This document shows positions 1 to 59,969 of a stretch of 64,000 nucleotides of DNA, one piece after another; position 1 is the first letter of the stretch; every line of letters begins with the position of its first letter. A model generated the notes under the pieces. That model made no database searches. It was not told where the DNA came from and was given only the letters and a program-made list of their open reading frames with translations. Source of the DNA: Bacillota bacterium. Its GTDB lineage: Bacteria; Bacillota_I; Bacilli_A; RF39; UBA660. The stretch lies in contig SVAS01000004.1 in the NCBI GenBank assembly GCA_015059285.1, positions 1 to 64,000 on the forward strand, given 5' to 3'. The position numbers and the translations under genes were made by a program.

Positions 1-1
1 A

Positions 2-775
2 GAAAACAAATTAGAAGTTAAAGGAGCACTTCCAACAAATGGAAAAATAACAGTAACAAAAGATGGAAAGGTCGCATTAGCAATCACAAATGGAGCACAT
101 TGTGTAACAAAAGCAACAAGTGAAAGTGCAATCACAACAACAAAATATGAAGGAAGTTGTGAATATAAAATGGTTTTAAATCCAATCATTATATCAAGAA
201 AAACGTGTTTAACAGATGGAAGTGAATGTGTAGTAGGAACAAAATTGACAGTACAAGTCAATACAACGGACACACAGGGATTCTATGTGGTATCTGACAT
301 TGATAACGTTTTAACATTGCTTATGGACAAAAATATCGGAGAAACAGTAGCGTGGATAACACAAGATGATTATGAAGCCGCAGGAGGAACTGCATGGGAT
401 GATTGGACAGACAATAATACATTTGGTCCAATCACAGCGTTAAATTATTTAGAAAGTCAAACAAGTGGATGGACAAATATAGCGGCCCAAACATTCACGT
501 TGACAGATAATGTATATGGAACAATAACAAGACCAAATGCAAGAGCAAGAATGTTAACAAAAATAGAAGCAAATTCAATAATATCAAATAGCTGGTCATA
601 TGGTAATTTTGTGATTTCGACAGAGGGTTACTGGACAAGCTCTGCTTATGCGAGCGGGGTTAAATATGCTTGGCTCGTTTATCGTGGTGGTAGCATTTTC
701 AGCAGTCACGTCTCCAACGGTTCCGACTACTATGGTGTTCGTCCAGTAATAGAAATACCTAAATTTTTTATTTAA
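2..775 (+). CDS. Prepilin-like variable protein, 5'-truncated by window edge (copy P1), C-terminal variable domain
   Basis: Frame 2 is open from the window edge (ENKLEVKGALPTNGKITVTKDGKVALAITNGA...) and matches the middle of the other four copies; ends YWTSSAYASGVKYAWLVYRGG...YYGVRPVIEI. The ORF track start at 170 is internal. Confidence 0.85.
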   Translation, partial: ENKLEVKGALPTNGKITVTKDGKVALAITNGAHCVTKATSESAITTTKYEGSCEYKMVLNPIIISRKTCLTDGSECVVGTKLTVQVNTTDTQGFYVVSDIDNVLTLLMDKNIGETVAWITQDDYEAAGGTAWDDWTDNNTFGPITALNYLESQTSGWTNIAAQTFTLTDNVYGTITRPNARARMLTKIEANSIISNSWSYGNFVISTEGYWTSSAYASGVKYAWLVYRGGSIFSSHVSNGSDYYGVRPVIEIPKFFI

Positions 776-12781: not shown

Positions 12782-12851
12782 TTTATGTTATAGTCCTGTT
12801 CTAAAGAGTAAAAGAATGTATAATAAAACTTGTTAGAATAGGAGTGAGTTT
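12782..12851 (+). promoter_or_regulatory. Conserved pilin leader with SD-sequestering hairpin (copy P2)
   Basis: TTTATGTTATAGT; CCTGTTCTAA (12795-12804) pairs with TTAGAATAGG (12833-12842) overlapping AGGAG SD. Confidence 0.55.
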
Positions 12852-13826
12852 ATGAAGAGAAAAGGATTTACCTTAATTGAACTATTAGCAGTAATAGTAA
12901 TACTAGCAATAATAGCACTAATAGCAGTACCAGTAATAATGAATATTATAAGTAGTGCAAGAGAAAGTGCATTTGAAGATACTGCGTATGGACTAATAAG
13001 TGCTGGGGAAATGTATTATACTAGAGAATTACTAAATAATGGAATGACAAGTGATGTAGAGTTCACAATTGAAGATGGAGAGTTTGTAGGAGAAAACAAA
13101 TTAGAAGTTAAAGGTGCATTACCACAAACAGGTAAAATAAAAGTTACAGTTGATGGAAAAGTAGCATTAGCAATATCAAATGGAGCAATGTGTATAACAA
13201 AAGGATATGATGATAGTAAGATTGATCCAGAAGCAGATGTTGATGACTGTAAATTACCATCAGGTACTGCAAAAACATTAAGAGAACTAGTCAAAACAAA
13301 TGATTTTGCTACAAGTGTAGATGGCTGTGTGATAAGTGGTATATGTGAAGTAGGAACGAAGTTTGCAATAGAGGTTGTTCCAGGAACAATTAAAAATTTC
13401 TATGTAATAAATGATACAAATAATACTGTAACATTAATTATGGATAGAAATATAGATGAAGAAACAGTAGCATGGAATACATCTGGAAATAATATAGATG
13501 GTCCGATTACAGCTCTTGATTATTTAGAAAGTAAAACAAGTAGTTGGATAAATATTGAAGAAAAAGCATATACAATAACAGATGATAAAGGTGAAAATGC
13601 TGTTTTAAGAAAAAATGCAAGAACTCGTATGATAACATATGTAGAAATAAATGATTTAATTAATTCTCATAGTTGGTTATATGGAGATTATTGGACAAGT
13701 TCTATTAGTGTAGATTATGATTATAGTGCTGCTTGGGGTGTTTTTAATGAGGGATTTATAGAACCATTTTCAGCAGATGCTTCAGATTATTTCGGTGTCC
13801 GTCCAGTAATAGAAATAAAAAAATAA
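12852..13826 (+). CDS. Prepilin-like protein (copy P2), diverged variable domain
   Basis: MKRKGFTLIELLAVIVILAIIALIAVPVIMNIISSARESAFEDTAYGLISAGEMYY; ends FGVRPVIEIKK. Confidence 0.92.
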   Translation: MKRKGFTLIELLAVIVILAIIALIAVPVIMNIISSARESAFEDTAYGLISAGEMYYTRELLNNGMTSDVEFTIEDGEFVGENKLEVKGALPQTGKIKVTVDGKVALAISNGAMCITKGYDDSKIDPEADVDDCKLPSGTAKTLRELVKTNDFATSVDGCVISGICEVGTKFAIEVVPGTIKNFYVINDTNNTVTLIMDRNIDEETVAWNTSGNNIDGPITALDYLESKTSSWINIEEKAYTITDDKGENAVLRKNARTRMITYVEINDLINSHSWLYGDYWTSSISVDYDYSAAWGVFNEGFIEPFSADASDYFGVRPVIEIKK

Positions 13827-21230: not shown

Positions 21231-21237
21231 GTTTGAT

Positions 21238-21305
21238 TTATGTTATAGTTCTATTCTAAAGAGTAAAAGAATGTATAATAAACTCGTGAAAGTAGGAGTG
21301 AGTTT
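21238..21305 (+). promoter_or_regulatory. Conserved pilin leader (copy P3) with weaker equivalent hairpin
   Basis: TTTATGTTATAGTTCTATTCTAAAGAG...GTGAAAGTAGGAGTGAG aligns with P2 and P5 leaders. Confidence 0.5.
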
Positions 21306-22373
21306 ATGAAGAAAAAAGGATTTACCTTAATTGAACTGTTAGCAGTAATAGTAATACTAGCAATAATAGCACTAATCGCAGTACCAGTTATAATGAACAT
21401 TATAGCAAGCGCAAGAAAAAGTGCATTTGAAGATACTGCATATGGATTAATAAGTGCAGGGGAAATGTATTATGCTAGAGAATTATTAGAAAATGGAATG
21501 ACAAGTGATGTAGAGTTCACAATTGAAGATGGAGAGTTTGTAGGAGAAAACAAATTAGAAGTAAAAGGATCACTTCCACCAAGTGGTAGTATTAAAGTTA
21601 CCCGTGATGGTAAAGTAGCACTAGCAATTTCAAATGGAGCAATGTGTATCACAAAAGGATATGACGATAGTAAGATTGATCCAGAAGCAGACTTAGATAA
21701 TTGTGAATTACCAGCTGAACTTGCAAAAACACTAAGTGAATTAGCAAAAATCAATGACTTTGCTGAAAGTGTAGATGCATGTGCAACAAGTGGTACATGT
21801 GCACCAGGAACAAAATTTGTAATAGAAGTAGCGCCAGAAAATATCCAAAACTTCTATGTAGTAAGTGATGTAGATAATAAAGTAACACTAATCATGGATA
21901 GAAATGTAGATGAAGAAACATTACCTTGGATAAATAATTCAGATTTTTTAGAAGCAGGTGGAGACCAAAAAGATTGGAATAATTATGAAAATATGAATGT
22001 ATATGGACCAATTACAGCATTAAATTACTTGGAAACACAAACAGGTGGCTGGACAAACATAGCAGCTAAGGGCTATACATTGACAGATAGTGTATATGGA
22101 ACAATGACAAGACAAAATGCACGTGCTCGTATGTTAACAATCACAGAAGCGTTAAGTGTAGGATGCCAAGAAAATAATACAGGATGTCCAACGTGGTTGT
22201 ATGGAAATTTTGGAACTAGTAATCCACCATACGGTTACTGGCTAAGCTCTGCTAGTAAGATTTGTAGTTATGGTGCTTGGTACGTGGACACTACTGGTTC
22301 TGTTTATGATATTGATAGCCTTGCCACTGATGAAAGATTAGGTGTGCGCCCAGTAATAGAAATTTCAAAATAA
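21306..22373 (+). CDS. Prepilin-like variable protein (copy P3)
   Basis: MKKKGFTLIELLAVIVILAIIALIAVPVIMNIIASARKSAFEDTAYGL; ends LGVRPVIEISK. Confidence 0.93.
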   Translation: MKKKGFTLIELLAVIVILAIIALIAVPVIMNIIASARKSAFEDTAYGLISAGEMYYARELLENGMTSDVEFTIEDGEFVGENKLEVKGSLPPSGSIKVTRDGKVALAISNGAMCITKGYDDSKIDPEADLDNCELPAELAKTLSELAKINDFAESVDACATSGTCAPGTKFVIEVAPENIQNFYVVSDVDNKVTLIMDRNVDEETLPWINNSDFLEAGGDQKDWNNYENMNVYGPITALNYLETQTGGWTNIAAKGYTLTDSVYGTMTRQNARARMLTITEALSVGCQENNTGCPTWLYGNFGTSNPPYGYWLSSASKICSYGAWYVDTTGSVYDIDSLATDERLGVRPVIEISK

Positions 22374-41284: not shown

Positions 41285-41480
41285 TTTATGTTATAGAAAC
41301 CATTTCTAATATAGTTTTATATATAATAAAAGTGTCAATATCAAAAAATAAAACGAAATGTTATTGACAGCGAAATATTTATGTTATAAAATAATTCTAG
41401 AACAATACGTTATACAAAGTAAACAAATGTATAAAAGAATAAAAAATTGTTCAAGATAAGAAAGAAGGAGCGGAAAGAGA
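41285..41480 (+). promoter_or_regulatory. P4 pilin promoter/leader: two TTTATGTTATA motifs, operator-like inverted repeat, leader hairpin
   Basis: TGTCAATA (41333-41340) / TATTGACA (41362-41369) perfect 8-bp inverted repeat overlapping a TTGACA; GAACAAT...ATTGTTC repeat before the SD. Confidence 0.5.
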
Positions 41481-42533
41481 ATGAAATCAAAAAGAAGAGG
41501 TTTTACCTTAATCGAGTTACTAGCAGTAATAGTAATACTAGCCATAATAGCACTAATAGCAGTACCAGTAATAATGAATATAATAACAAGTGCAAGAAAG
41601 AGTGCATTTGAAGATACTGCATATGGATTAATAAGTGCTGGGGAAATGTATTATGCTCAGGCTCTATTAGAAAATGGAATGACTAGTGATGTAGAGTTCA
41701 CAATAACAGATGGAGAATTTGTTGGAACAAATAAACTAGAGGTAAAAGGAGCATTACCATCAAGTGGTAGTATTAAAGTTACACGAGATGGTAAAGTAGC
41801 ACTAGCTATTTCAAATGGAGCGATGTGTATCACAAAAGGATACGATGATAGTAAAATTGATCCAGAAGCAGATGTAGATAATTGTGTACTACCAGCTGAA
41901 CCTGCAAAAACACTAAGTGAATTAGCAAAAACAAATGACTTTGCTACAAGTGTAGATGCATGTGCAACAACAGGTACATGTGCAGTAGGAACAAAGTTTG
42001 CAATCGAAGTAGCCCCAGGAAATATCCAAAACTTCTATGTAGTAAGTGATGCTAGTAATAAAGTTACGTTAATCATGGATAAAAATGTTGATGAAAACAC
42101 AGTAGCATGGATAACAAAAACAGATTATTTAGCAGCAGGAGGAACAGAAGCAGAATGGGATACAGAATGTGATGAATGTGGGAACAATAATAAAGGTCCA
42201 ATAACAGCGTTAAATTACTTAGAAAGTCAAACGTCTAGTTGGACATATATAGCACCACAGGACTATACATTAACAGACAGTAAATATGGAACGATGACAA
42301 GAACAAATGCGCGCGCTAGAATGTTAACAGAAACAGAAGTAAATGCAATAATTAGTAATGATTGGTCATATGGAAATTTAGCAATGCCACCATATGGATA
42401 CTGGACAAGCTCTGCTTATGCGGACATTGCTATCAGCGCTTGGCGCGTGTACCGCGTCGGTCGCGTTGACATCGGCGACGTCATCATTGACGACAGCTAC
42501 GGTGTGCGCCCAGTTATCGAAATCTCAAAATAA
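41481..42533 (+). CDS. Prepilin-like variable protein (copy P4), strongest GC/NNC-rich variable cassette
   Basis: MKSKRRGFTLIELLAVIVILAIIALIAVPVIMNIITSARKSAFEDTAYGL; ends YWTSSAYADIAISAWRVYRVGRVDIGDVIIDDSYGVRPVIEISK. Confidence 0.93.
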   Translation: MKSKRRGFTLIELLAVIVILAIIALIAVPVIMNIITSARKSAFEDTAYGLISAGEMYYAQALLENGMTSDVEFTITDGEFVGTNKLEVKGALPSSGSIKVTRDGKVALAISNGAMCITKGYDDSKIDPEADVDNCVLPAEPAKTLSELAKTNDFATSVDACATTGTCAVGTKFAIEVAPGNIQNFYVVSDASNKVTLIMDKNVDENTVAWITKTDYLAAGGTEAEWDTECDECGNNNKGPITALNYLESQTSSWTYIAPQDYTLTDSKYGTMTRTNARARMLTETEVNAIISNDWSYGNLAMPPYGYWTSSAYADIAISAWRVYRVGRVDIGDVIIDDSYGVRPVIEISK

Positions 42534-57887: not shown

Positions 57888-58715
57888 ATGAAAAGATTAA
57901 AAAGATATATAAAAAGACTTATTAATATACTAAAAAGACCAGAAGTTAGAATTCTTCCAGGACAGATTGCTTACTTTGTTGTATTATCCGCAGTTCCTTT
58001 AATTGCTTTAATTGGATGTTTATGTTCTTTATTTTCTGTTTCATTAAATGGTGTTTTAAATATTTTTGTTGAAAATATTCCAGAAGCTGTAATAAATATA
58101 TTAAAACCAGCATTTACAAATCCTGGATTTACAGCTGGATTTTCTATTATTGTTGGTTTTATAGTAGCATCAAATGGAACTCATTCAATTATAGTAGCTA
58201 CTAATTTATTATTTAAAATTGAAACAAAAGATTATATTAAAAGAAGAATAAAAGCCTTTTTTATGTTAATAGTATTAGTACTACTTTTCTTTTTTATAGT
58301 TGTAGTACTCGGGTTTGGTAATGTTATTTTAAAAATGATATTATCATTAAAAGTATTAGCAAATGTTTCTGAATATATATATACTATATTTATACTATTA
58401 AAATGGCCTATAGCTATAGTTTTAATTTTCTTTATGGTAACGTTACTTTATACAATGGCACTTGATAAACGTATTCCAAGTAGATATATGAATAAAGGTG
58501 CTGTTTTTACAACTTGTTGTTGGTTATTAGTTACAGCAGTATATTCTTATTATGCTAGTAATTTTGCAAATTATAGCTTATTTTATGGTAATTTAGCAAA
58601 CTTAGTAGTTCTTATGATTTGGGTTTATATCCTAGCTTATATTTTTGTAATTGGTATAGCTATTAATAGTGATAATTATAATGTGGAAAAAAATGTTATT
58701 AATAAAAAGGATTAA
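57888..58715 (+). CDS. YihY/BrkB family inner membrane protein
   Basis: Multi-TM, ILPGQIAYFVVLSAVPLIALIG...LYTMALDKRIPSRYMNKGAVFTTCCWLLV. Confidence 0.88.
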   Translation: MKRLKRYIKRLINILKRPEVRILPGQIAYFVVLSAVPLIALIGCLCSLFSVSLNGVLNIFVENIPEAVINILKPAFTNPGFTAGFSIIVGFIVASNGTHSIIVATNLLFKIETKDYIKRRIKAFFMLIVLVLLFFFIVVVLGFGNVILKMILSLKVLANVSEYIYTIFILLKWPIAIVLIFFMVTLLYTMALDKRIPSRYMNKGAVFTTCCWLLVTAVYSYYASNFANYSLFYGNLANLVVLMIWVYILAYIFVIGIAINSDNYNVEKNVINKKD

Positions 58716-58870
58716 ATAAGTAAATATTATTAGTGAATACATATCAATTACCAGTATGTATTTATTTACAGACTACACTAGTACCGATGTAGTTTTACTG
58801 TGAACTAATAAGTATTAATTCTTATATGGTAATATATCTCCTTTTTAATAACAGCTATTAATAAATAGTA

Positions 58871-58893
58871 AAACGGTTTATAGCCGTTTTTTT
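58871..58893 (+). terminator. Rho-independent terminator
   Basis: AAACGG tttatag CCGTTT + T-run. Confidence 0.75.
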
Positions 58894-58900
58894 GTTTAAA

Positions 58901-58970
58901 TTTATGTTATAGTCCTGTTCTGAAAGCTAAAAAAATATATAATAAAGCTTGTTAGAATAGGAGTGAGTTT
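58901..58970 (+). promoter_or_regulatory. Conserved pilin leader with SD-sequestering hairpin (copy P5)
   Basis: CCTGTTCTGAAAGCT (58914-58928) pairs with AGCTT-g-TTAGAATAGG (58946-58961). Confidence 0.6.
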
Positions 58971-59969
58971 ATGAAGAAAAAAGGGTTTACGTTAATTGAG
59001 TTACTAGCCGTAATAGTAATACTAGCAATAATAGCACTAATCGCAGTACCAGTTATTATAAATATTATAAGTAGTGCAAGAGAAAGTGCGTTTGAGGATA
59101 CTGCATATGGACTAATAAGTGCTGGGGAAATGTATTATGCACAAGAATTATTAGAAAATGGAATGACAAGTGATGTAGAATTCACAATTGAAGATGGAAA
59201 GTTTGTAGGAGAAAACAAATTGGAAGTTAAAGGCGCGTTACCAACAAATGGTAAAATCAAAGTTACCCGTGATGGAAAAGTAGCACTAGCGATATCAAAT
59301 GGAACAATGTGTATAACAAAGGGATACAATGATGGTAAAATTGATCTAGAAGAAGATGTGGATAATTGTGTATTACCAACAGGAGAACCACAACTAGGCA
59401 CTTTAGTATATTTAGTAAAAACAAATGATTTTGCCACCACAATTAATGCATGTGCAACAAATGGTAATGAATGTGCACCAGGAACACCATTTGCGATAGA
59501 AGTAGCCCCAGGAGAAGTTAAAAACTTCTATGTAGTAAGTGATGTCGATAATAAAGTCACATTGATTATGGATAGAAACATTGGTAATGCAGTAGAGTGG
59601 AATACATCAGGAAATAATGCAGACGGTCCAATCACAGTGTTAAATTATTTAGAAAGTCAAACAAGTAATTGGACAAATATAGCAGCGAAGGACTATACAT
59701 TAACAGATAGTGTATATGGAACAATCACAAGAGCCAATGCGCGTGCAAGAATGTTAACAGAAACAGAAGCAAATGCAATAATTGGCTATGATTGGTCATA
59801 TGAGAATTTAGATGAAGATGTAGGCCCTTGGGGTTACTGGCTAAGCTCTGCCCATACGAAACTTGCTAGCGATGCTTTGAGTGTGGGTGTTTACGGTGAC
59901 ATTGACTGCGGTGGCATCGACGCTGGCAACTTTGGTGTGCGTCCAGTAATAGAGATTTCAAAAAAATAA
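58971..59969 (+). CDS. Prepilin-like variable protein (copy P5)
   Basis: MKKKGFTLIELLAVIVILAIIALIAVPVIINIISSARESAFEDTAYGL; ends FGVRPVIEISKK. Confidence 0.93.
   Translation: MKKKGFTLIELLAVIVILAIIALIAVPVIINIISSARESAFEDTAYGLISAGEMYYAQELLENGMTSDVEFTIEDGKFVGENKLEVKGALPTNGKIKVTRDGKVALAISNGTMCITKGYNDGKIDLEEDVDNCVLPTGEPQLGTLVYLVKTNDFATTINACATNGNECAPGTPFAIEVAPGEVKNFYVVSDVDNKVTLIMDRNIGNAVEWNTSGNNADGPITVLNYLESQTSNWTNIAAKDYTLTDSVYGTITRANARARMLTETEANAIIGYDWSYENLDEDVGPWGYWLSSAHTKLASDALSVGVYGDIDCGGIDAGNFGVRPVIEISKK

Follow-up and report, generated by a model that had tools for sequence, protein, structure and literature searches.

P5 (58971-59969) is a pseudopilin gene on the forward strand of the window, the whole 64,000-nucleotide stretch of DNA that was analysed, and encodes a 332-aa protein with an N_methyl motif. 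An earlier note on this DNA described a leader common to P5 and two other pilin genes, P2 and P3, that folds over the Shine-Dalgarno (SD) sequence, and we asked what such an inverted repeat would do in front of a pilin gene. All window features given here lie on the forward strand. The P5 leader abuts the intrinsic terminator (58870-58893, with a 9-pair stem at 58870-58890 and a T-run) of an upstream YihY-like gene (57888-58715). It begins with block 1, TTTATGTTATAGT (58901-58913), an extended -10-like element with TATAGT at 58908-58913 and no -35, and continues with the 5' arm of the hairpin, CCTGTTCTGAAAGCT (58914-58928), a second -10-like element, TATAAT, within the hairpin loop (58938-58943), and the 3' arm, AGCTTgTTAGAATAGG (58946-58961; AGCTTgTTAGAATAGGA when extended to 58962), which holds the AGG of the SD AGGAG (58959-58963) ahead of the start codon ATG at 58971. 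RNAfold returned the stem where the earlier note had placed it, with 15 pairs and one bulged G burying the SD, at -15.6 kcal/mol and a z-score of about -4.9. None of 5000 dinucleotide shuffles folded as well as P5, compared with 5 of 5000 for P2 and 619 of 5000 for P3; therefore, the P5 and P2 hairpins are beyond chance, and their z-scores ranked second and third, respectively, among 57 start regions of the window. P2 (pseudopilin gene 12852-13826, leader 12782-12851, arms 12794-12804 and 12833-12843, TATAAT 12819-12824) keeps the stem, as had been claimed. The matched changes once read in P3 (pseudopilin gene 21306-22373, behind efp; leader 21237-21305, with an altered 3' arm, CTCGTGAAAGTAGGAG) were a generous description of two mismatches and two G-U pairs; the minimum-energy fold of this leader is another structure in which the SD hairpin is not formed.

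The leader shared by P2, P3 and P5 occurs three times in the window, where 0.04 occurrences are expected by chance, and 18 times in the genome (1.04 Mb in five contigs). This genome has 52 pilin matches, about 35 of these being full-length genes. Leaders of this kind, referred to as class A, precede 18 pilins, about half of the full-length genes, and all 18 copies stand before a pilin gene; a second and different kind, class B, which includes the P4 leader, precedes 16 pilins. Among the 60 genomes searched with a covariance model of class A, exactly those 18 places were found in this genome and the leader was absent from the 59 related genomes. A pattern search in 30 relatives was uninformative, since control counts matched real counts. 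Of the 18 class-A leaders, 14 retain the 11-bp core stem with no more than one pair missing; the stem is altered in L021 and not kept in P3, L009 and L012. As judged from these predicted folds, the class-A leader is a true, shared inverted repeat covering the SD. At least four contig ends (the starts of C2, C3, C4 and C5; window positions 1-775) fall within pilin copies, indicating that the pilin family breaks the assembly and that its count is too low.

In the 14 leaders with an intact stem, arm 1 has five variable sites, all opposite G or U, and Watson-Crick or wobble pairing is kept at 5 of 5; by chance, five variable sites would all fall among the six tolerant positions of eleven with p = 6/462 = 0.013, a post hoc value. 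This pairing-preserving variation argues, if only mildly, that RNA pairing is under selection. Pairwise differences were 0.0 in TATAATAA, the stretch around the loop TATAAT that is invariant in 18 of 18 class-A leaders, 0.05 in the TTTATGTT block (block 1), with TTTATGTT itself invariant in 17 aligned leaders, 0.09 in arm 2 with the SD, 0.21 in arm 1 and 0.27 in the loop, compared with 0.33 at 4-fold coding sites. The covariation that the earlier note had looked to for support did not emerge from the 17-row class-A alignment, in which no measure was clearly above column shuffles (59 to 151 of 500 reached the observed value), and Rfam gave no match in 58600-59100 up to E = 1. The same variation bears on a decidedly improbable reading at the DNA level, in which the arms would be half-sites of an operator flanking the loop TATAAT and bound by a repressor or an activator. 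The arms lie about 39 bp apart, centre to centre, around this -10 element at a spacing nearly constant in class A, and in every leader inverting arm 2 reproduces arm 1 with no more than one or two mismatches, as half-sites might show; however, an operator does not predict that arm 1 drifts only by G-U-keeping changes, the arm spacing in class B varies by more than 15 nt, and TTAGAATAGGA is exact in the window solely at P2 and P5. A second inverted repeat, TAAACTC/GAGTTTA around the P3 start codon, was rejected because L013, L014 and L026 disrupt it and carry no compensating change.

Which RNAs could contain both arms depends on where transcription would start. The first -10 element (extended, TTTATGTTrTAnT; TATG-T-TATAGT in P5) has its predicted start at about 58920, which cuts the 5' arm, and the second (TATAAT) at about 58949, which removes it. 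P5 RNA from the first and second predicted starts folds at -4.5 and 0 kcal/mol, respectively, versus -15.6 kcal/mol for the full stem. With both starts lying either inside the 5' arm or downstream of it, only RNA that has read through the terminator should contain the full hairpin. No recognisable -35 fits either -10 element, this being so in all 18 class-A leaders, and in the loop TATAAT the TG is a base nearer than it should be, which leaves the internal promoter of class A as a candidate only. In many relatives the pilin -10 element lies, by eye, 10-16 nt before AGGAG, often with TTGACA in front, and the loop TATAAT of P5, 15 nt before AGGAG, falls within this range. In 18 of 18 class-A leaders, no more than about 10 nt separate the start of the leader from the intrinsic terminator of a co-directional upstream gene, and the gene-to-gene gaps are 81-121 nt with one of 255 nt.

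We then compared SD exposure in a read-through-like RNA model with 95 nt of upstream sequence included. The mean predicted probability that the SD is unpaired was 0.11 for class A (median 0.00), compared with 0.76 for class B and 0.49 for 48 further genes of the window, and 16 of the 18 class-A leaders were below 0.25. The difference between class A and the 48 other genes gave a Mann-Whitney p of 9e-7, which is too small because the 18 leaders are related. In RNA from the loop promoter, the class-A SD was predicted to be partly open (0.21-0.86, mean about 0.42). A thermosensor, one function that the earlier note had offered, is unlikely because the predicted exposure is nearly flat over 37-45 °C, rising from 0.05 to 0.11 in P2 and from 0.15 to 0.19 in P5. 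Class A resembles SD-sequestering RNA thermometers in that its SD lies within a stem a short way upstream of the start codon, but its predicted helix is too stable and responds too little over 37-45 °C.

The earlier note had favoured co-ordinated translational control. In a model of this kind the full hairpin would be part of the main pilin mRNA, and a protein, a small RNA or temperature could be what it responds to. Occlusion of the SD in at least 14 of the 18 leaders, wobble-compatible variation of the arms and a sequence held in common, by which one regulator might recognise all the leaders, would agree with it. This model needs a start upstream of 58914, where only the terminator stands and none is predicted, whereas both predicted starts, and these are predictions only, would leave the RNA with a truncated 5' arm or none; in addition, there is neither thermal opening between 37 and 45 °C nor an Rfam match, and the class-B pilins, from the same family, keep the SD open. 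The two conditions that the earlier note had named for its refutation, a start beyond the 5' arm and a lack of covariation, thus both lean against it, if not conclusively, and we regard it as unlikely: the RNA-level reading is borne out by arm-1 changes that keep pairing, but does not extend to a hairpin in the normal pilin mRNA. A CsrA or Hfq site was dropped for want of specific evidence.

Class B differs from class A in its promoter as well as in its SD. In the P4 leader (41364-41480, pseudopilin gene 41481-42533), TTGACA (41364-41369) is followed after 17 nt by TAAAAT (41387-41392), and the arms TCTAGAACAAT (41396-41406) and ATTGTTCAAGA (41446-41456) leave the SD outside the stem. Each of the 16 class-B leaders brings a conserved promoter region of its own, in which a TTGACA-like -35 (TTGACA, with TTTACA and TCGACA as single-copy variants) stands 17 nt upstream of TAAAAT; the gaps measure 204-270 nt, and a GAACAAU/AUUGUUC stem at the 5' end lies clear of the SD. 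Conservation also extends over a long upstream stretch (TATAATAAAAGTGTCAATGATAG...TTGACA) in these leaders (41300-41480 and 15 others). Judging from the promoter sequences, the class-B genes form the other half of the pilin family, under separate control. The class-B arrangement raises the very improbable alternative that both classes carry a 5'-terminal stem protecting the mRNA. Class-B RNA would then begin near arm 1 (AGAACAAU), and in class A the first -10 element would give a start near CUAAAGAGU and leave a short stem ahead of the SD. The spacing TTGACA-17-TAAAAT does put the class-B start at arm 1, and GAACAA/TTGTTC is kept in 16 of 16 save one G-C to G-U change, with one C-G to U-A double change. 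The class-A remainder, however, is weak (-4.5 kcal/mol and z -0.3 in P5), and the first -10 element is ruined in ten leaders.

Among the class-A leaders, the first -10 element and the helix vary in opposition. The two leaders with a perfect first -10 element TATAAT, L009 and L012, have weak helices (-6.3 and -7.5 kcal/mol), those with TATAGT mostly reach -12.6 to -15.6 kcal/mol (-5.8 in P3), and the ten in which this element is ruined by loss of the -11 A (TGTACT) reach -11 to -19.3 kcal/mol, with 14 contiguous pairs in eight of them, 13 in L011 and 11 in L028. This pattern suggests that a promoter may have been traded for a helix in class A, the changes being few as independent events and shared by descent. 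A leader peptide over arm 1 of the GTACT leaders (ATG TTG TAC TTC ... TAA), as in an erm-like attenuator, was rejected because no ribosome-binding site follows the T-run, the peptide itself is unconserved, and in the ATAGT leaders a stop comes after two codons.

We tentatively favour, over co-ordinated translational control, a reading that may well be right though it falls short of probable, namely that the class-A leader is a read-through silencer built around an internal promoter. RNA polymerase passing the terminator of the upstream gene would copy both arms; the read-through RNA would fold and take AGGAG into the helix, together with sequence beside the start codon in many copies, and with the SD covered the pilin would stay untranslated from stray transcripts. 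RNA started inside the leader, at the TTTATGTTATAGT extended -10 or the loop TATAAT, would lack all or part of the 5' arm and be translatable. The position of class A behind terminators, its SD pairing compared with class B and other genes, the opposition of helix and first -10 element, and the invariant TATAATAA argue for such a silencer. Against it stand the missing -35, the only partly open short RNAs, P3, L009 and L012 without the hairpin, covariation that is not significant, three syntenic leaders of a second species without the helix, and relatives whose pilins behind terminators are not generally occluded. The transposase gene of IS10/Tn10 is shielded from external promoters in this manner, its read-through RNA folding over the start region and its internal-promoter RNA not; unlike there, class A involves no transposase and no evidence of pilin mobility, and for several of the pilins the upstream gene is the same one in other species. 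In the leaders of T4 gene e (lysozyme) and I-TevI, long transcripts initiated upstream hide the SD in a helix, and a promoter within the stretch of the 5' strand yields RNAs that lack this strand and are translated (PMC3014915). The class-A SD is likewise predicted to be paired in a long transcript and, by analogy, the leader would most likely work like that of T4 gene e; it differs in serving a multigene pilin family on a bacterial chromosome, in its house-keeping-like -10 elements, in the terminator directly in front, and in being known from sequence. If the silencer is real, a mechanism of phages and insertion sequences guards a large chromosomal surface-protein family in a gut bacterium, and near-identical genes can lie dispersed downstream of host operons yet escape activation from the adjacent genes.

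G001, a second species of the same genus with 51 pilin matches, has three pilins behind the same upstream gene as class-A ones: L184 (efp, as P3), L177 (as P5) and L179 (as L014). The class-A helix is absent from all three of these leaders. The SD is predicted to be open in L177 (0.98) and L179 (0.95); L184, which has two -10 elements, has its SD mostly paired (0.15) through other pairs, as does L203 (0.25), and these two predicted foldings are no more than a hint of SD pairing there. In relatives, pilins behind terminators are not generally occluded (17%, versus 13% without a terminator). These leaders bear on the somewhat unlikely view that the hairpin is a by-product. Gene duplication, perhaps with gene conversion, would then have multiplied a conserved promoter region bearing two -10 elements, along with a complementarity that had arisen early by chance, and as RNA the arms would have no function. 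Consistent with a by-product, L177, L179 and L184 have -10 elements without arms, the leader is found in this species only (1 of 60 genomes), covariation does not exceed shuffles, and P3, L009 and L012 work, if at all, without the hairpin; what it leaves unexplained is that arm 1 varies only at pairing-tolerant sites, and somewhat less than the loop and 4-fold sites, and that the stem is longer, 11-14 bp, where the first -10 element is lost.

The class-A silencer, if it exists, would act on genes that may themselves be diversified. On contig C1 of this genome (L224:7582-9741), a reverse transcriptase (PF00078), bAvd (PF22296) and a MutS_I protein (PF01624) are encoded together, and the retroelement template lies between the reverse transcriptase gene and a neighbouring pilin gene. 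Over 90-nt stretches, nine scattered pilins, including P4, show 203 differences from the template at adenines and 23 at other bases, the variable region of P4 differing almost solely at adenines. Other full-length pilins match the template less cleanly, and the variable region of P5 has 15 non-adenine differences. The pilin C-termini, that of P5 included, thus look like the variable regions of a diversity-generating retroelement that targets pilins, and that a single retroelement should have so many scattered pilin targets seems more striking than the leader itself. It is quite unlikely, in our estimate, that the two combine so that about half of the retroelement-diversified pilins are parked behind terminators, locked in read-through RNA and expressed one at a time, each from its own weak internal promoter, as suits an antigen-like family. 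The read-through silencer, if real, would also tell how such a repertoire of diversified pilins comes to be expressed.

Two further features were observed before pilins of other species. In G001, L176, L178 and L200 each have a pair of extended -10 elements (TTATGTTATAAT-like) in tandem, separated by about 30 nt. In related species, runs of 8-11 G lie between, or shortly upstream of, the -35 and -10 elements of pilins (L103 and L139; L082, L088, L089, L091, L107 and L133), where phase variation by slippage in the G run is possible.
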